The translations under genes and the position numbers were made by a program. This document shows, one piece after another, positions 9,185 to 33,720 of a stretch of DNA of 33,826 nt. Each line of letters starts with the position of its first letter. Position 1 is the stretch's first letter. A model generated the notes under the pieces. The model saw nothing but the letters and a program-made list of their open reading frames with translations, was not told where the DNA came from and ran no database searches. The stretch is from Deltaproteobacteria bacterium (lineage in GTDB: Bacteria; Desulfobacterota; GWC2-55-46; UBA9637): the NCBI GenBank assembly GCA_030690165.1, contig JAUYHF010000045.1:1-33826 (forward strand). The letters are read 5' to 3'.

Positions 9185-9796
9185 ATGAAAGCCAATGATA
9201 GCACAGGCTTAATGGACAGGCAGGATGCCTGCCCTACTGGTAGCACAGGCTTCCAGCCTGTGAAATATTTTCAGATTTACAAAAGGAATCTCCCTCACTG
9301 GCAATCACCCGGAAGCGTGTATTTTATTACCTTTAGAACATTCAAAAATATTACGCTTTCAGAAGATGCCAGAGATGTTGTTTTAAACTCTATTCTGTTC
9401 TGGAAGGGCAAGAAATTTAGCTTATATGGGGCAATAGTAATGCCAGACCATGCACATTTAATCCTCCAACCTTTGGAGAAGAAAGGCACAGACAAGATGT
9501 CTGTGCCACCAAACAAAACTGGTAGCACAGGCTTCCAGCCTGTGACTTCTTACTATAGTCTTGCAGAGATCCTTCATAGCATCAAGAGTTATTCAGCAAG
9601 CAAGGTCAATAAACTACTTGGGGAATCAGGGTCTCTATGGCTGGATGAAAATTTCGACAGGATTGTGAGGGATGAGGGCGAATTATTAGAGAAAATGAAC
9701 TACATTACGAATAATCCGGTAAAGGTCGGGTTGGTAAACAAGGCTGTAGAATACAAATGGCTATATCTGGAAGGTATGCAGAAAAACAGTAAATAA
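9185..9796 (+). CDS. REP-associated tyrosine transposase (RAYT, Y1_Tnp/IS200-like)
   Basis: A 203-residue HUH single-strand transposase. The HUH motif is His89/His91 in VMPDHAHLILQP. The likely nucleophile is Tyr173 in MNYITNNPVKVGLV, and WLDENFDRIVRDEGELLEK is typical of RAYTs. The protein is enlarged by repeat-derived peptides: residues 11-26 (DRQDACPTGSTGFQPV) and 101-120 (ending TGSTGFQPV). Both are encoded by the palindromes that RAYTs are thought to mobilise. Without these the protein would begin near KYFQIYKRNLPHWQ. A third palindrome lies downstream, so the gene is bracketed and invaded by REPs. AAGAAGG precedes the ATG. Confidence 0.9.
   Translation: MKANDSTGLMDRQDACPTGSTGFQPVKYFQIYKRNLPHWQSPGSVYFITFRTFKNITLSEDARDVVLNSILFWKGKKFSLYGAIVMPDHAHLILQPLEKKGTDKMSVPPNKTGSTGFQPVTSYYSLAEILHSIKSYSASKVNKLLGESGSLWLDENFDRIVRDEGELLEKMNYITNNPVKVGLVNKAVEYKWLYLEGMQKNSK
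9219..9262. repeat. REP palindrome pair at the RAYT 5' end
   Basis: Two hairpins lie inside the first codons of the RAYT: GGCAGG-ATG-CCTGCC (9219-9233) and CACAGGCT-TCC-AGCCTGTG (9244-9262). They are separated by a CTACTGGTAG spacer. The second hairpin recurs at 9526-9544 and, with one change, near 9832-9850. Confidence 0.85.
9485..9544. repeat. REP palindrome pair inside the RAYT coding region
   Basis: GGCACAGACA-AGA-TGTCTGTGCC (9485-9507) is followed by CACAGGCT-TCC-AGCCTGTG (9526-9544). Together with the linker they add about 20 codons in frame just after the HUH motif, without breaking the ORF. Confidence 0.85.
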
Positions 9797-24499: not shown

Positions 24500-26665
24500 T
24501 TAATCTTCTCTCCTTTGCATCCACTTTCTTGCTATCCGCGCCTCTTCATAACTTACCACACCGTTTGCCTGCTCAACAACAGATTTCAGGCCGAGGTGTT
24601 GAGATTTTAAAAACATCTCTTCTATCTCGCGCCTCTTTACAGGCGCAATCAAACGGTCTATGTCAATATCACTGCCTGCCTGAATGAGTTTTTCTATGTG
24701 GCTTGCAATGGTTGATGGCGCGAGGCTGCGCTGCGCCGCTATTTGTTCCAGAGATAAGCCTTTTTGGAACAGCCGGTATGTTTCTTCAACAGTCCCCGTG
24801 ATTGCGGATTTAGGATTGCGGATTTCTGTTTTATATTCCGCATTCCGCTCTCTGCGCTGCGCATTCGGATTTTCGGCAAGGTATTTCGCAGTCTCCTGAA
24901 TAAACTTATCGCCGTATCGCTCTAACTTCGTATCGCCGACGCCGCTGATCTTTCTCATGTCCGGCGCTGTAGCGGGATAGTATCTGCACATCTCATGCAG
25001 GGTTCTGTCCGAGAACACGACAAAGGGCGGAACCCGCTCTTTATCGGCGATCCTCTTTCTCATTATCCGCAGCCTATCAAAGAGTGTTTGGTCATACCCT
25101 TCAATCCCGCCCCTTGCCCGCGCCTTTTCTTTTGGCTCGTCACGTTTCAATCCTTCAATCTGCGCCTTGCCGCGCAGGACTGCGTTTGCCTTTTCCGTCA
25201 GTTTCAATACCGGATATTTGCCGCTCTCCTGCAGGATTATCTCCTGCGCGAGCAGTTCGTCAACAATGAGCCGCCAGTGCTCTTTGTCCTTATCTTTTCC
25301 CACGCCGTAAGTTTTTATGGCATGATGGCCCAAGGCGCGGATCCGTTTTGTGTCCGCGCCGGTCACCACATCAACGATGTGTCCTGCTCCGAACCGCTCC
25401 TCTGTTCTGAACATGGCTGACATCACGATCTGCGCATCCCGGGTAATGTCAATCCGCTCGATATTTCCGGTACAAATATCGCAGCTACCGCAATTTTCCG
25501 TTGGATACTGTTCGCCGAAATAACCGAGAAGCTGCCTTCGCCTGCACACATTGTGCGACGCAAACCCGACCATCCGGTTCAGATTTTCCATAGCAACAGA
25601 GCGCTCCGCGTCGCCCGGTATCTGATCTATGAAATATCTTATCTTGGGAATATCTCCTCTGCCGAAAAAGAGGAGACATTGCGCTGGTTCGCCGTCGCGT
25701 CCGGCGCGGCCTGTCTCCTGATAGTAGCCCTCAATGTTTTTGGGAAGGTCTGCGTGGATGACAAACCGCACATTGGATTTGTCAATGCCCATGCCAAAGG
25801 CGATGGTCGCCACGATCACCTGCGCCTCGTCACGGTTGAACGCATCCTGATTTTTGTCCCGCACATCCGGAAGAAGCCCAGCGTGATAAGGAAGGGCGCT
25901 GATTCCGTTGGCCTTGAGAAAATCCGCAGTCGCCGTAACAGAATCGCGCGTGGTGCGATACACAATGCCGGACTCGTCGGAATGCAATCCGAGGAATTTA
26001 AGTATCTGCGATTCCACGTCGGATTTTCTTTCCACCTGATAAAAGAGATTAGGACGATTGAAAGAGGCGCGAACGACAAAAGGTTTTCTGAGGCTGAGCC
26101 TTGCGCAGATATCTTCCTGCACCATGGCTGTTGCTGTTGCGGTAAAGGCGGCTATGGGTGTATTGCTAAACACTTTTGGAATAATGGAAAGGCTCAGATA
26201 ATCAGGCCGGAAGTCATGCCCCCATTCCGAGATGCAGTGCGCCTCGTCTATGGCAAAAAACGAGATGGGCATGGCCTTCAAAGTCTCAAGAAAATTCGGC
26301 ATGGCGAACCGCTCCGGAGCGATGTAGAGCAGTTCTATCTTTTTATTTTTCAAGTTTCGGTAAACTTCCGAAACCTCGCTGGAATCCAGCGAACTGTTCA
26401 GATACGCGGCCGCGATACCGTTTGCCCGCGCAGCGTCAACCTGATCCTTCATCAAAGAGATGAGCGGGCTGATGACGATTGCGGCGCCGGACATGATCTT
26501 TGCCGGAAGTTGATAGCAGAGCGATTTGCCGCCGCCGGTCGGCATCACGGCAAACACATCCCTGCCCGCCAGAATGCTTTTGATAATCGCCTCCTGATTC
26601 GGCCGGAACGAGCGAAAGCCGAATACGGTTTGAAGGGCGTCTCTTATTGCAGACCCATTATCCAT
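24500..26665 (-). CDS. recQ: ATP-dependent DNA helicase RecQ
   Basis: A 721-residue 3'-5' helicase for recombination and fork repair. Walker A MPTGGGKS is at 41-48, DEAH at 140-143, FTATATA near 174-180, and motif VI ETGRAGRDGEPAQC at 317-330. The RQC zinc site has Cys374, Cys392, Cys395 and Cys398. The HRDC domain (about 526-597) contains MRKISGVGDTKLERYG. A C-terminal helix-turn-helix extension (about 626-721; LSLEQIAAQRSLAPSTIASH) is as in longer RecQ proteins. The linker at 600-622 (EYKTEIRNPKSAI) is encoded by repeat-like DNA. GC content is higher than in neighbouring genes. Followed directly by the SpoIIM-like gene. Confidence 0.95.
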   Translation of the reverse strand: MDNGSAIRDALQTVFGFRSFRPNQEAIIKSILAGRDVFAVMPTGGGKSLCYQLPAKIMSGAAIVISPLISLMKDQVDAARANGIAAAYLNSSLDSSEVSEVYRNLKNKKIELLYIAPERFAMPNFLETLKAMPISFFAIDEAHCISEWGHDFRPDYLSLSIIPKVFSNTPIAAFTATATAMVQEDICARLSLRKPFVVRASFNRPNLFYQVERKSDVESQILKFLGLHSDESGIVYRTTRDSVTATADFLKANGISALPYHAGLLPDVRDKNQDAFNRDEAQVIVATIAFGMGIDKSNVRFVIHADLPKNIEGYYQETGRAGRDGEPAQCLLFFGRGDIPKIRYFIDQIPGDAERSVAMENLNRMVGFASHNVCRRRQLLGYFGEQYPTENCGSCDICTGNIERIDITRDAQIVMSAMFRTEERFGAGHIVDVVTGADTKRIRALGHHAIKTYGVGKDKDKEHWRLIVDELLAQEIILQESGKYPVLKLTEKANAVLRGKAQIEGLKRDEPKEKARARGGIEGYDQTLFDRLRIMRKRIADKERVPPFVVFSDRTLHEMCRYYPATAPDMRKISGVGDTKLERYGDKFIQETAKYLAENPNAQRRERNAEYKTEIRNPKSAITGTVEETYRLFQKGLSLEQIAAQRSLAPSTIASHIEKLIQAGSDIDIDRLIAPVKRREIEEMFLKSQHLGLKSVVEQANGVVSYEEARIARKWMQRRED
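24801..24870. repeat. Repeat-like DNA encoding the RecQ HRDC-HTH linker
   Basis: ATTGCGGATTT occurs twice, 14 bases apart, followed by ATTCCGCATTCCGCTC and GCGCATTCGGATT. Such GCGGATT/ATTCCGC units are typical dispersed spacer repeats, here in frame between two RecQ domains. Confidence 0.55.
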
Positions 26666-27662: not shown

Positions 27663-28241
27663 ATGTTCAGGCGCATTATATTTTTAACAGCCATTTTTAC
27701 ACCCTTGTTTCCTATCATTGCCGCGCCGGCCTTTGGCGGGAGTTCTATGAATCCAGCAGTGGACAAGGTTGTTATAACAAATAATTCAGATAGTGTTCAG
27801 GTGTCTTTTGAGATTAAAAACGCCTTTACAAAGGATATAGAAGAGGGGATTAAAAGCGGGATACCTACGACATTTACCTTCTTTGTAGAGCTTTACCGAA
27901 AACAGGGTTTGTGGTTTGATAAAACATTGGCTGGCATGACATTCAGGCATACTGTAAAGTATGATACCTTAAAAGAAGAGTATGAGATTGTGCAGGGAGA
28001 AAAACAGAAAAACACCATGCGGATCAAAGAGATTGAGCAGGCAAAGAAAATCATGGCAGGCGGTGATAATATCATCATTAAACCAGCTTCAGCGCTGAAA
28101 AAAGGAGAAGGGTATCAGATCAGAATAAAGGCCACACTGGATCCTGTAAACCTTCCATTCCCGCTTAATTATATGCTCTTCTTTGTTTCATTCTGGAATT
28201 ATGAAACCGGTTGGTATGAAAAGGAGTTTGTAATACAGTAG
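27663..28241 (+). CDS. DUF4390 domain secreted/periplasmic protein
   Basis: A 192-residue protein with an N-terminal hydrophobic leader (IIFLTAIFTPLFPIIAAPAF) and a beta-rich domain of the DUF4390 type: VQVSFEIKNAFTKDIEEGIK, GIPTTFTFFVELYRKQGLWF, FRHTVKYDTLKEEYEI, and YMLFFVSFWNYETGWYEKEF at the end. Members are typically encoded just before NtrY-like kinases, as here, and may be the periplasmic sensing partner; that role is inference. No ribosome binding site is visible before the ATG. Confidence 0.8.
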   Translation: MFRRIIFLTAIFTPLFPIIAAPAFGGSSMNPAVDKVVITNNSDSVQVSFEIKNAFTKDIEEGIKSGIPTTFTFFVELYRKQGLWFDKTLAGMTFRHTVKYDTLKEEYEIVQGEKQKNTMRIKEIEQAKKIMAGGDNIIIKPASALKKGEGYQIRIKATLDPVNLPFPLNYMLFFVSFWNYETGWYEKEFVIQ

Positions 28242-28321: not shown

Positions 28322-30550
28322 ATGACTGAACAACTAATATCCGAAGAGGAACATAAAAGACGCAGACGCGAGTGGTATATCATTGCATCTGTTGCGATTG
28401 CTATCATTATATTAACATACATTGAAAGCCACATCGGAGGCGCAGACAGCAGTCTTCCTACAGCCACTAATGTAATTGTTTTCGGCCTCATCAATGTAAA
28501 CATAATTCTCTTAATCCTGCTTGTCTTTCTAATCTTAAGAAATTTTGTAAAACTCATTTTTGAAAGACGAAGCAAGATTATTGGCTCGCGGCTTCGCACA
28601 AGACTCATCGTTACATTTGTAGGACTTTCTATTATTCCAACCTTCCTTTTATTTTTCGTGGTTATTGGATTTATAAACAAAAGCATTGAGGGTTGGTTTG
28701 GCATTAAGGTGGAAGACTCTTTGCGGGAATCTCTGGAACTCGGACAAAACTACTATAAAGACACATCCGATAATATGGTTGTATATGCTAATCAGATAAG
28801 GTCAAAACTCTCCTCTGATGGATTAACTCAGGATGAGGATAAACTACGGTCATACCTTGAAACAAAAATGGCAGAGGCAGGTATAAGCAGCATAGAGGTT
28901 TTTTCCGCAGATAAACAGAGGATTGGCTATACGCTGGCAAACCATGTGACGCAGAATATGGTTCCGGATATACCTATAGAGTTAATTTCAGACGCCTTCA
29001 AGGGTAATGCGGCAAATTTTATACAAACCTTTGAAAAGGGGGATGTGGCAAGAGGCGTTTCTCCAGCCTTTTCCTCTGACCGCAAGGTCGTAATCGGGGT
29101 TGTAGTTGTAAGCCATTATGTGTCCAGGAGCCTCATTGCCAAGATGAAGGGAATCTCCACTGCATTTGAGAGCTACAGGCAGTTGAAGATATTAAAAACG
29201 CCGCTTAAGGCCAGTTATTTTACAACGCTTCTAATTATAACTCTGGTAATAGTGTTTTTTGCAATATGGATAGGCAGATATATGGCAAAGGAGATAACAG
29301 TCCCTATCCAGCAGCTTGCATACGGGACAAATGAGATTGCAAACGGCAACCTTGATTATCGCATATCTATAGAGGCAAAGGATGAGATTGGGGTTTTGGT
29401 AAACTCATTTAATAAAATGACCGGAGATTTAAAGGCAACCAAGAACAGGATAGAAGAGGCAAATATAGACCTCAAAAAAACAAACACGGAGCTGGAGCAG
29501 AGAAGGAGATACATGGAAATAGTTCTTGGTAATGTGGCTGCGGGTGTTATCTCGCTTGACAAGGACGGAAAGATAACTACAATAAACAGGGTTGCAGAAG
29601 ATCTCCTTGGGCTGGCTCCTGGAAGGGCTTTAGAAAAAACTTACAGGGATATATTGAAACCAAAGGATGAAGGCTTCCTGAACGGAATGATAGCTGAGAT
29701 GAAGGACAGAGGCGCAGATAACCTGGAAAGGCAGATACAGATAGACTTAAAAGGCAAGGCCGTACCTGTTCTTCTTAATCTTACGATGCTTAAGGATGAC
29801 AACGGCAATTATCTCGGCATGGTGGCTGTGCTTGAGGATTTAAGCCATCTCCTTAAGACCCAACGTATGATGGCATGGAAGGAGGTTGCCCAGAGGATAG
29901 CGCATGAGGTGAAAAATCCTCTTACACCAATACAGCTTTCTGCGCAGAGATTGAGCAAAAAATACAGAGACAGATTTTCCGGAGAAGAAGGCCATGTCTT
30001 TGACGAATGCACCAAAACCATAATCAGACAGGTGGATGAATTAAAGACCCTTGTGAATGAATTCTCAAATTTTGCAAGGATGCCGTCTGCCAATCCGGCG
30101 CCGAATAATATAAATGAGATTATAAAAGAGGTTGCGGCCCTTTATCATGGCATGCCGAAAGGCATATCGTTTAGTTTAAATCTGGATGAAAAGCTTCCAA
30201 TGCTGGATGTAGACCGGGACCAAATAAAAAGAGTCATCATAAACCTTCTGGATAATTCTATTGTGTCTATTGAGGGGAACGGTATGATTATACTGGAAAC
30301 CTTTTACGATAAGGAATATAAGATTGCGAGGATTGAGGTGGCTGACACAGGCTGCGGGATACCGGAAGAAGATAAGCCCAGACTCTTTGAGCCATATTTT
30401 TCCACAAAGAAGTCAGGAAACGGCGGGCTTGGCCTTGCCATTGTAAGCGACATAATTGCCGATCACAGAGGCTATATAAGGGTAAAGGATAATGTCCCGG
30501 CGGGAACCCGTTTTGTAATAGAACTTCCGGTAAAGGGAGGCAGGGCTTAA
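28322..30550 (+). CDS. NtrY-like sensor histidine kinase
   Basis: A 742-residue membrane kinase. Three hydrophobic segments lie within residues 1-120 (IIASVAIAIIILTYIESHIG, NIILLILLVFLILRNFV, FVGLSIIPTFLLFFVVIGFI). A periplasmic sensor region (about 120-295) is followed by a fourth membrane segment near 300-320, HAMP (PIQQLAYGTNEIANGNLDY), PAS (about 395-505), HisKA with His528 in RIAHEVKNPLTPIQLSAQRL, and HATPase with INLLDNSIVSI, DTGCGIPEEDKPRLFEPYF and GGLGLAIVSDI. This is the NtrY architecture. The next gene, 17 bases on, carries the receiver and is its probable target. No nif or gln genes are nearby. Confidence 0.9.
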   Translation: MTEQLISEEEHKRRRREWYIIASVAIAIIILTYIESHIGGADSSLPTATNVIVFGLINVNIILLILLVFLILRNFVKLIFERRSKIIGSRLRTRLIVTFVGLSIIPTFLLFFVVIGFINKSIEGWFGIKVEDSLRESLELGQNYYKDTSDNMVVYANQIRSKLSSDGLTQDEDKLRSYLETKMAEAGISSIEVFSADKQRIGYTLANHVTQNMVPDIPIELISDAFKGNAANFIQTFEKGDVARGVSPAFSSDRKVVIGVVVVSHYVSRSLIAKMKGISTAFESYRQLKILKTPLKASYFTTLLIITLVIVFFAIWIGRYMAKEITVPIQQLAYGTNEIANGNLDYRISIEAKDEIGVLVNSFNKMTGDLKATKNRIEEANIDLKKTNTELEQRRRYMEIVLGNVAAGVISLDKDGKITTINRVAEDLLGLAPGRALEKTYRDILKPKDEGFLNGMIAEMKDRGADNLERQIQIDLKGKAVPVLLNLTMLKDDNGNYLGMVAVLEDLSHLLKTQRMMAWKEVAQRIAHEVKNPLTPIQLSAQRLSKKYRDRFSGEEGHVFDECTKTIIRQVDELKTLVNEFSNFARMPSANPAPNNINEIIKEVAALYHGMPKGISFSLNLDEKLPMLDVDRDQIKRVIINLLDNSIVSIEGNGMIILETFYDKEYKIARIEVADTGCGIPEEDKPRLFEPYFSTKKSGNGGLGLAIVSDIIADHRGYIRVKDNVPAGTRFVIELPVKGGRA

Positions 30551-30567: not shown

Positions 30568-31884
30568 ATGAAGAGAGTAAAGAAAATAATGGTTGTGGAT
30601 GATGAGGAAAGCATCAGGCAATCTCTCTCTGATGTTCTGAGAGATGAAGGGTTTGATGTAATATTGGCCGGCGACGGACATAAGGCATTAAAGATGTTGA
30701 ATTCAAACCGGCCTGATTTGGTGATCCTTGATATATGGATGCCTGTAATGGACGGCACAGAGGTTTTAAAAGAAATAAAGGCAAGACAACCGGACCTTCA
30801 GGTGATAATGATATCCGGCCATGGAAATATTGAGGCGGCTGTAAAGACCATAAAGCTCGGCGCATATGATTATATAGAAAAGCCGCTTTCTCTGGAAGCC
30901 GTGCTTTTAACTGTAAAGAGGGCATTGAATGAGGGGGGTAAGGAGAGTTCGGAGTTTGGAGTTCCGGTCTCCAGCGAAGCGGGCGCGGAATTAAAATCTC
31001 AAATTCCAAATCATAGGTTTGAGGCAAAGAAAGGGCAGGCCGGCAGAATGCAGCGGACAATAAAAACGAGCATTGTCCTTGGCGGTCAGGGGCTTCACTC
31101 CGGCGGAAAGACAGGGGTTATCCTTTCTCCGCTCCCTCCCAACAGCGGTATTGTATTTACAAGCCTTTCATCAGAAGAGATGATACCCGCGCACCTTGAT
31201 TATGTTTCTTCCACAGATTATGCCACTACCTTGAAGAGAGGACACGCCTCTATCATGACCATTGAGCATCTTATGGCTGTCCTGCATATATATAAAATAA
31301 CCAATCTCCTGATAAAGATAGGGAGCGAGGTGCCTATAATGGACGGCTCTGCCATGGATTTCTGCCAGATGATAGAAGACAGCGGCGCTCTGGAACAGGG
31401 AGAGCCGGTAGACGATATTGTAATAGACAATACTTATTCAATCGGGAATCCTGCTAATGGGAGATATATATCCATTGAACCTTCACCCAATCTTACAATC
31501 CGGTATTCAATGGATTATCCGCCTCCGATTGGAAAACAAGAGGCGAATTTTATTCTTGACGATCCTGAGGTTTTCAGGAAAGAGATAGCCCCTGCCAGAA
31601 CCTACGGCTTTGTTAAGGATTACGGCAAATTGCAAGAGATGGGTCTGGCAAAAGGGGGCAGGCTTTCCAATGTGGTGCTGGTGGGCGAAGACAGGGTAAT
31701 CAATACAGCGCTTAGATTTCCCAATGAGTTTGCCAGACACAAGATACTTGATATTACCGGAGACCTCTATCTTTTGGGGAGGCCGATAAAGGGCAAGGTT
31801 ACAGCAAGGATGACGGGACATACAGAAAATATCTTGCTCTTGAGGAAAATAGCGGAATGCAAGACAGCCGCTACACAAAAATAG
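30568..31884 (+). CDS. lpxC: Receiver domain fused to LpxC (UDP-3-O-acyl-GlcNAc deacetylase)
   Basis: One 438-residue ORF without internal stop. Residues 1-121 are an NtrX-type receiver: acidic Asp11/Asp12, phospho-acceptor Asp55 in LVILDIWMPVMDG, Ser83 in MISGHGNIEAAVKTIKLGAY, and Lys105 in IEKPL. Residues 122-160 form a low-complexity linker. Residues 161-438 are a full LpxC, the zinc deacetylase committing to lipid A: Glu233-His234 in TIEHLMAVL, ARTYGFVKDYGKLQ, His391/Asp395 in RHKILDITGDLYLLG, and His418 in TGHTEN, matching the E. coli H79, H238, D242, H265 set. The AAA+ and Fis domains of NtrX are absent. An internal ATG at 31048 might also yield LpxC alone; its ribosome binding site is weak. 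Confidence 0.93.
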   Translation: MKRVKKIMVVDDEESIRQSLSDVLRDEGFDVILAGDGHKALKMLNSNRPDLVILDIWMPVMDGTEVLKEIKARQPDLQVIMISGHGNIEAAVKTIKLGAYDYIEKPLSLEAVLLTVKRALNEGGKESSEFGVPVSSEAGAELKSQIPNHRFEAKKGQAGRMQRTIKTSIVLGGQGLHSGGKTGVILSPLPPNSGIVFTSLSSEEMIPAHLDYVSSTDYATTLKRGHASIMTIEHLMAVLHIYKITNLLIKIGSEVPIMDGSAMDFCQMIEDSGALEQGEPVDDIVIDNTYSIGNPANGRYISIEPSPNLTIRYSMDYPPPIGKQEANFILDDPEVFRKEIAPARTYGFVKDYGKLQEMGLAKGGRLSNVVLVGEDRVINTALRFPNEFARHKILDITGDLYLLGRPIKGKVTARMTGHTENILLLRKIAECKTAATQK

Positions 31885-31948: not shown

Positions 31949-32939
31949 ATGACAGACGCAGACAAAATAAATATTTTTGTCCATGAAGGCGAAGGGCTTA
32001 CCGTTGAGTTTAAGGAACATTTTACTGCCCGGATTGATGAGGATATCGTTGCATTTGCAAACACAAAAGGCGGGACAATCCTGCTCGGTGTCAGAGACGA
32101 CCGCACAATAGCAGGGGAGAAACTAACCAATGACCTCAAAGCCCGCATCAATTCTATTGCAAGAAACTGCGCCCCACCTATACAGACAAAGATTAAACAC
32201 ATTCAAAACATCGTAGCAATAGAAGTGCCGCTTAATCCAGTTTAATGAAGCTGTTGCTTTTTTAAAGAAACATTTGAACGTCCGCAGTGAAATTCGGGGT
32301 TTTGAGCGTTCTGATATTTATGAGATACCTTTGGACGCCTTAAGGGAAGCAATTGTTAATGCTATAGTCCACAGGAATTATACTATTAGCGGAACAAGTA
32401 TTTATGTAAGAATTTACGATGACCGCGTGGAGATAGAAAACCCAGGAGGACTTCCTGACGGAATTACAAAACTGGATTTTGCCAAGTCCTCTGTAAGGAG
32501 AAATCCGATTATTGCTGATATGTTCCATCGTATGGGTAAAGTTGAGCGCATGGGTTCCGGTATCGAGCGCATGAGGGACCTTATGCGCGAGGCTGGGCTG
32601 AAAGAGCCAGTATTTGAAATGGATGCATTCTTTCGGGTCGCTTTTTATCGTGATCCGCGTTATTCCCTTAAAGCGGATAGAGAAACCGGAGAGAAAACTA
32701 CCCAGAAAAAGTTGGGTGAAAGGTTGGGTGATAAGTTGGGTGAAAGGTTGGGTAAAAATGAAATGAAGATTTTAGATATTATAAATCAAAATAAATTTAT
32801 TACAATCCCAAAACTCTCAAAATCGCTTAAGATTAGCACAACTGCTGTAGAAAATAATATTGCAAAACTAAAAGCAAAGAAGGTGTTAAAACGTATCGGG
32901 TCCGATAAGGGCGGTCATTGGGAGATAGTGAATGGCTAA
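31949..32939 (+). pseudogene. AlbA/RecG-like (COG2865) regulator with internal deletion
   Basis: Two pieces of one gene in different frames. Bases 31949-32245 encode an AlbA_2 (divergent AAA, Schlafen-like) start: LTVEFKEHFTARIDEDIVAF and ANTKGGTILLGV. From about 32238 the frame shifts and FNEAVAFLKKHLNVRSEIRG leads into the C-terminal half: EIPLDALREAIVNAIVHRNY, the ATPase-like DDRVEIENPGGLPDGIT, RRNPIIADMFHRMG and a final winged helix. The end of AlbA_2 and the middle of the protein, of the order of 100 residues or more, are missing. A 12-base tandem repeat (32711-32752) encodes KLGERLGDKLGERLG. The gene overlaps the methyltransferase start by 8 bases. Confidence 0.8.
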
Positions 32940-33720
32940 ATTTCAAAAACTTGAACTCACATGGATAGGCAAAGAAAATCAGCCGAGGCTTGAGCCGAGG
33001 ATATTGATTGAAGATGCGGAGAGGTCTTACGGACACACCCCTGCCCCTCTCAAGAGGGGATTAAAAAGTCCCCTCCTCGGAGGGGAAACAGGGGTGGGTA
33101 ATATGCTTATCCACGGCGACAACCTTCTTGCGCTCAAAGCCCTTGAGCAGGACTTTGCAGGGAAAATCAAGTGCATCTATATTGACCCGCCGTACAATAC
33201 TGGAAATGCCTTTGAACATTATGATGACGGGCTGGAGCATTCAATATGGCTGAGCCTCATAAAGCCACGGATTGAACTTTTGCACAGGCTTTTGAGCAAT
33301 GACGGCTCTATATGGATTTCTATTGATGATGATGAAAGCCATTATCTGAAGGTGCTGTGTGATGAGATTTTCGGGAGGAAGAATTTTGTTGCAAACGTGG
33401 TTTGGCAGAAAAAATCATCTCCATCAAATGATGCCAAATGGATTTCTGATAATCACGACCATATTTTGGTATTTGCAAAAGACAAAAATATCTGGCGACC
33501 AAACAAGCTGGAAAGAACACAATCACATAACGCTATTTATAAAAACTCCGATCAGTATGATGGGGTTGACAATAAAAGCAATTTCTATGGGCGAGGGCCT
33601 TGGTTTCCTGGCGATATGACGGTTAAAACAATTACTGAAAACGCTTTGTACGAAATTACTACTCCTTCCGGCAGAAAGGTCAAACCTGGACTTCCCCCGA
33701 ATTTAAGGACACTAAGTTAG
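32932..33720 (+). pseudogene. Type III-like adenine DNA methyltransferase (Mod), truncated by an IS
   Basis: An N-terminal 252-residue part of a beta-class N6-adenine methyltransferase. NMLIHGDNLLALKALEQDF and the catalytic motif IV YIDPPYNTGNAFEHYDD are followed by LSNDGSIWISIDDDESHYLK and the target-recognition start. It runs into an IS3-family end at 33687, after YEITTPSGRKVKP, adding nine foreign residues and a stop. In this class the AdoMet-binding motif I lies in the C-terminal part, which is lost, so the product should be inactive. Residues ~36-55 come from an in-frame repeat. A restriction subunit, if any, would lie beyond the window. Confidence 0.88.
33037..33095 (+). repeat. In-frame nested palindrome in the methyltransferase gene
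   Basis: ACCCCTG (33037-33043) and CAGGGGT (33089-33095) enclose two hairpins, CCCCTC-TCAA-GAGGGG and CCCCTC-CTCG-GAGGGG. The insert keeps the frame open and encodes a KRGLKSPLLGGETG-type peptide just before the NMLIHGDN motif. Confidence 0.8.

Follow-up and report, generated by a model that had tools for sequence, protein, structure and literature searches.

What a response-regulator receiver domain is doing at the N-terminus of LpxC (UDP-3-O-acyl-GlcNAc deacetylase), the essential, antibiotic-targeted enzyme of the committed step of lipid A synthesis, is the question raised by one gene of the window, the 33,826-nucleotide stretch of deltaproteobacterial DNA analysed here. The gene (30568..31884, + strand) is one uninterrupted open reading frame of 438 amino acids, as an earlier note made from the sequence alone had described it, in which an NtrX-type receiver (residues 7-114; 30586..30909, +) is joined through a linker (residues 123-161; 30934..31050, +) to a complete LpxC deacetylase domain (residues 162-429; 31051..31854, +). 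Both domains exceed their Pfam gathering cut-offs (Response_reg, PF00072, E = 2.6e-32, 111.7 bits versus a cut-off of 30.2; LpxC, PF03331, E = 2.5e-81), and the protein also passes the lpxC equivalog cut-off of TIGR00325 (230.6 versus 187.25 bits). The nearest solved structure to the N-terminal half is the NtrX receiver 4d6x, while LpxC structures, 2jt2 and 5u86 among them, come closest to the C-terminal half. The NtrX type of the receiver is supported by this structural match, by the receiver tree and by the NtrX equivalog NF051870, a model of receiver, AAA+ and HTH domains that matches the fusion over the receiver stretch only, with 141.6 of 600 bits. The receiver has the acidic pair (D11, D12), the predicted phospho-acceptor aspartate (D55; codon 30730..30732, +), the serine/threonine (S83) and the lysine (K105) of PF00072, and the LpxC half, full-length with all of its zinc and catalytic residues (E233, H234, H391, D395, H418), is predicted to have deacetylase activity; these ten residues, listed in the earlier note, are invariant in the ten closest fusions. 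AlphaFold2, run on the fusion with nine relatives, predicted the receiver mostly well, the linker with low confidence and the LpxC half poorly, the last because the alignment was shallow.

The fusion gene is the third of a series in which a DUF4390 gene is followed by ntrY and then by the receiver-LpxC gene. The kinase (28322..30550, +; 742 amino acids) has four hydrophobic segments and the NtrY_N (28.6 bits; cut-off 23.2), HAMP, PAS, HisKA and HATPase domains, with an HEVKNP motif at H528 in HisKA, so that the proposed pairing with an NtrY-like kinase holds at the level of domains and also at the level of gene order, ntrY being adjacent throughout the family of the window (f1). Among sampled fusions ntrY adjoins the fusion in about half, including this whole family; exactly one NtrY_N match, adjacent or elsewhere, was found in 21 of 25 fused genomes tested and none in the other four, and in the genome of the window the only match is the adjoining kinase. 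The DUF4390 protein (27663..28241, +; 192 amino acids), whose domain is above its cut-off and whose N-terminus appears by eye to be hydrophobic and signal-peptide-like, resembles PlrP, and its position before the kinase is that found with NtrYX and PlrSR in beta- and gamma-proteobacteria (PMC13001219). In Bordetella, PlrP joins the NtrY-type PlrS system as a third component; it has been shown genetically to modulate the kinase and is proposed to restrain the phosphatase activity of PlrS (PMC13001219). By analogy, the DUF4390 protein may modulate NtrY, and of the three-gene envelope-sensing circuit suggested earlier, a third component of this kind is plausible. Downstream of the fusion, two adjoining open reading frames (31949-32939) resemble the two ends of a single AlbA/HATPase-type (Schlafen-like) regulator, N-terminal and C-terminal, without the middle, and look like a broken or shortened gene. 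A probable adenine-specific DNA methylase (32932-33720) is represented by its N-terminal part; its frame closes shortly before the contig does, and the gene appears to be truncated.

The genome that contains the window is 2.2 Mb in size and 100% complete, as a draft in 70 contigs, and the fusion is its only lpxC. LpxB and LpxK are also encoded, so the lipid A pathway seems to be intact and is expected to rely on the fusion. Among the other proteins of the genome that bear a receiver, the nine best were examined for a second NtrX-type receiver and none was found; all nine fall outside the NtrX/fused group in a short and weakly resolved receiver tree. The separate lpxC and ntrX genes whose presence the earlier note had proposed to check were thus not found, within this complete genome and among these nine proteins, respectively.

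The architecture is widespread and old, beyond what could be seen from the window. Each of the seven lpxC-bearing f1 genomes sampled (that of the window and six relatives) has the same open fusion, as does G014 of another family in the same class, whereas the remaining members of the class have an ordinary unfused LpxC of about 320 amino acids with about 37% identity. A missed stop codon or frameshift between the two halves, or an error of assembly, is ruled out by this recurrence in independent genomes. When 395 genomes of the phylum were queried with the LpxC half, 362 were found to bear lpxC and 89 of these to have fusions (90 loci), with a sharp break in identity: matches of at least 45% (the 90 loci) all lie in open frames of 382-1423 amino acids, the 382-residue frame being cut by a contig end, and matches of at most 43% are ordinary LpxC of 280-360 amino acids plus a few longer stop-to-stop frames such as that of G377. 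The 1007-1423-residue frames of G127, G246 and G162 were considered as fusions that incorporate the kinase and rejected as long open frames overlapping other genes; no Pfam domain was found in their added parts. In Nitrospinota, lpxC is present in 65 of 77 genomes, each time as a single copy and nearly always in a frame of 460-797 amino acids, the shortest frames inspected ending at contig ends; the fusion thus runs through effectively the whole of this phylum. Nitrospirota have the fusion in a minority: five loci reach at least 54% identity, and about ten others, at 43-47%, are candidates by frame length (444-496 amino acids). The combination of Response_reg and LpxC thus recurs in three phyla, and the receiver precedes LpxC in all sampled fusions (74 loci read out for domain order) except L146, L147 and L160, in which the receiver is cut off or broken. 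Three genomes (G274, locus L190; G119, loci L180 and L193; G316) combine an unfused lpxC, clustered as lpxC-(DUF4390)-ntrY, with a receiver-LpxC gene that lies apart from this cluster; the LpxC of L190 is very divergent, with methionine for H177 and serine for T345, and is perhaps a paralog with another role. A 3310-base contig of G004 (C36; loci L124 and L042 compared with L122, on contig C76 of G002) carries what seems to be the fusion sequence of G002. G004 also has its own copy on C7, and the short contig is probably contamination from binning and not a second gene.

Two forms of the fusion exist: a short form, receiver-LpxC, found also in two Nitrospinota (L144 and L145), and a long form of about 670-770 amino acids in which an AAA+ domain and, in part of the members, a Fis-type HTH lie between receiver and LpxC. 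The proposal that LpxC stands in the place of the AAA+ and DNA-binding parts of an NtrX protein is borne out by these relatives that still carry such parts, the AAA+-containing intermediate surviving as the long form. The long forms retain Walker A; the GAFTGA loop, which is needed for activating sigma-54 polymerase, is present in none of 37 informative long fusions, versus 21 of 22 stand-alone NtrX/NtrC proteins that have the loop or a close variant, and the Fis HTH has been lost from about a third of the long forms. Fused LpxC domains kept E233, H234, H391, K392, D395 and H418 in 73 of 73 proteins, and fused receivers kept D12, D55, W57, P59, K105 and P106 in 70 of 70 and D11 in 68 of 70, position 83 being serine or threonine; the only exceptions among the 70 are L131 and L132 of Nitrospinota, which have glutamate for D11, the first residue of the acidic pair. 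To judge from these sequences, the part inherited from a transcription factor degenerates once fused, whereas switch and enzyme are retained, and this contrast is the strongest evidence that the receiver acts on LpxC.

The preferred reading, to which a probability of roughly 70% is given, is that the protein is a response regulator with LpxC itself as its output, NtrY setting the phosphorylation of D55 and thereby altering LpxC. The membrane kinase NtrY would phosphorylate or dephosphorylate D55 in response to a putative signal, with the DUF4390 protein probably tuning NtrY in the periplasm; the resulting change in the receiver would affect how active or how stable the attached LpxC is, or its placement at the membrane, and the rate of lipid A initiation would be set in this way. 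Against this reading count the half of the sampled fusions without an adjacent ntrY and the four tested genomes without an NtrY_N match. Control by phosphorylation is what we infer from the conserved residues, which might be kept for some purpose besides the switching of LpxC. A rival reading is that of a tether, by which the receiver docks LpxC on NtrY at the inner membrane and phosphorylation sets its residence there rather than its catalysis. Docking of this kind is suggested by the encoding of receiver and NtrY side by side and has a parallel in Neisseria, where recruitment of LpxC to the inner membrane by LapB/Ght has been reported (PMC12444477); it is judged unlikely, because many fusions are encoded away from ntrY and a pure docking domain would not need the D55 and K105 that every fused receiver keeps. 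The receiver might instead be a stabilising or dimerising module that works without phosphate control, as receivers of NtrC-type proteins are known to dimerise and two Nitrospinota tolerate glutamate at D11. That the phosphorylation site is invariant or conservatively replaced across three phyla, that pairing with NtrY continues and that the receiver has a dN/dS of about 0.1 make such a purely structural role quite improbable. Within f1, the least saturated pairs give dN/dS of about 0.10-0.14 for the receiver and 0.07-0.09 for LpxC, values which indicate strong purifying selection on both halves, the linker being unconstrained; the view that both halves look functional is upheld by this selection together with the residue conservation.

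The linker is also where the two halves might come apart, if a free LpxC arose through internal initiation of translation or through cleavage and the receiver acted as a free single-domain regulator. In the window an ATG codon (M161) stands at the expected beginning of a free LpxC, but M161 is missing from all other f1 genomes aligned and common only to contig L052, and in only five of 72 fused genes does a Shine-Dalgarno-like tetramer accompany a start codon close to where LpxC begins; translation from M161 was rejected for lack of conservation, and separate action of the halves is very unlikely. Linkers of the short forms are 22-63 amino acids long. The linker of the window includes KSQIPNHRFE, similar in flavour to an in-frame stretch, NAEYKTEIRNPKSAI, of a RecQ-like helicase (24500-26665), a stretch with the look of a short interspersed repeat that has been translated. 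Within the window, the DNA of the linker pieces was not found a second time, as it would be if a mobile repeat had left it there. Elsewhere in the window, an open reading frame (9185-9796) resembling a REP-associated (RAYT-type) transposase has the repeated peptide TGSTGFQPV in frame, which suggests a short repeat inserted into it. The last reading, an accidental fusion or assembly artefact without consequence, as a 70-contig draft and an unconstrained linker might imply, is refuted: the fusion occurs across three phyla in genomes independent of one another, long single contigs among them, as one LpxC clade with purifying selection on both halves.

Fused LpxC proteins form one clade relative to unfused LpxC, with support of 100/100 in the careful tree and 99 (SH-aLRT) when 30 unfused rows were included. 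The clade of the window, which consists of f1, G014 and two Thermodesulfovibrionia bins, has support of 100/100 and groups with the Nitrospinota fusions with moderate support (85); this grouping and the patchy spread suggest that horizontal transfer lies behind its fusion. Five changes between long and short form map onto the LpxC tree (4-6 over bootstraps). The early branches of the rooted tree are short-form, but they are long-branched and uncertain, and because the order receiver-AAA+-HTH is colinear with NtrX, loss of the AAA+/DNA-binding part from a long form is likelier than repeated gain. On this order of events, an NtrX-LpxC fusion most likely lost sigma-54 activation first and the whole AAA+/DNA-binding part next, in several lineages including that of the window. 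In unfused members of the phylum, lpxC is directly upstream of (DUF4390)-ntrY at 15 of 20 loci from many families (L191-L195, L199-L202 and L204-L209), with ntrX following ntrY where the stretch reaches that far. A link between NtrYX and LpxC thus appears to be older than the fusion.

The fusion shares with regulators of the NtrX/NtrC family (NtrYX; PlrSR of Bordetella) an NtrX-type receiver and an NtrY kinase encoded upstream, and differs from them in that the protein of the window has neither AAA+ nor DNA-binding domain and its output is an enzyme. Response regulators with enzymatic outputs are known of the CheB, GGDEF, EAL and HD-GYP types, in which a receiver is likewise coupled straight to a catalytic domain; the output here differs in being a committed enzyme of outer-membrane biosynthesis. 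With LpxC proper it has in common the whole domain and all catalytic residues, and it is set apart by the N-terminal receiver and by its separate clade. LpxC-FabZ bifunctional proteins (NF009667, for which the fusion scores 205.7 of 465 bits) also join LpxC to a second domain, in that case a dehydratase of metabolism rather than a signalling domain. In E. coli, FtsH, LapB and YejM exert post-translational control on the committed step of lipid A synthesis, as is proposed for the fusion, but by proteolysis rather than by a phosphorylation switch. An NtrX without its AAA+ domain has been reported from beta-proteobacteria (PMC13001219). Rhodobacter sphaeroides without NtrYX has 8.8-fold more lpxC transcript and more LPS, an effect judged to be indirect; no NtrX site was found upstream of lpxC (PMC7240162). 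NtrYX of Caulobacter is reported to lower lpxC expression (PMC12444477). The same signalling family acts on the same enzyme, transcriptionally in Rhodobacter and Caulobacter and, as proposed here, through covalent coupling in the fusion; that the phosphorylated form of the fusion inhibits LpxC would be a guess by analogy with the lowering of LpxC by Rhodobacter NtrYX. A 2025 review of lipid A regulation describes proteolysis, and transcription in other bacteria, and does not mention a receiver fusion (PMC12444477); no earlier description of a receiver-LpxC fusion was found in the open-access literature searched.

Extended to all Nitrospinota and to many lineages of the phylum of the window, the preferred reading becomes that of a two-component system without transcription, in which signalling from NtrY through the fused receiver to LpxC is the main control of lipid A synthesis, and a transcription factor, once fused, has become a regulated biosynthetic enzyme by shedding step by step the parts that act on DNA; this wider account is considered probable on balance. 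The control of LpxC outside the E. coli group is a largely open question on which the fusion touches, and recurrence across three phyla suggests that outer-membrane synthesis is controlled there by signalling directly to LpxC. If true, the fusion would be a direct switch of LpxC open to assay in the test tube, and it would account for the puzzling way in which NtrYX is repeatedly linked to the cell envelope. It would also be a clear case of a transcription factor converted to a regulated enzyme whose intermediate forms survive today.
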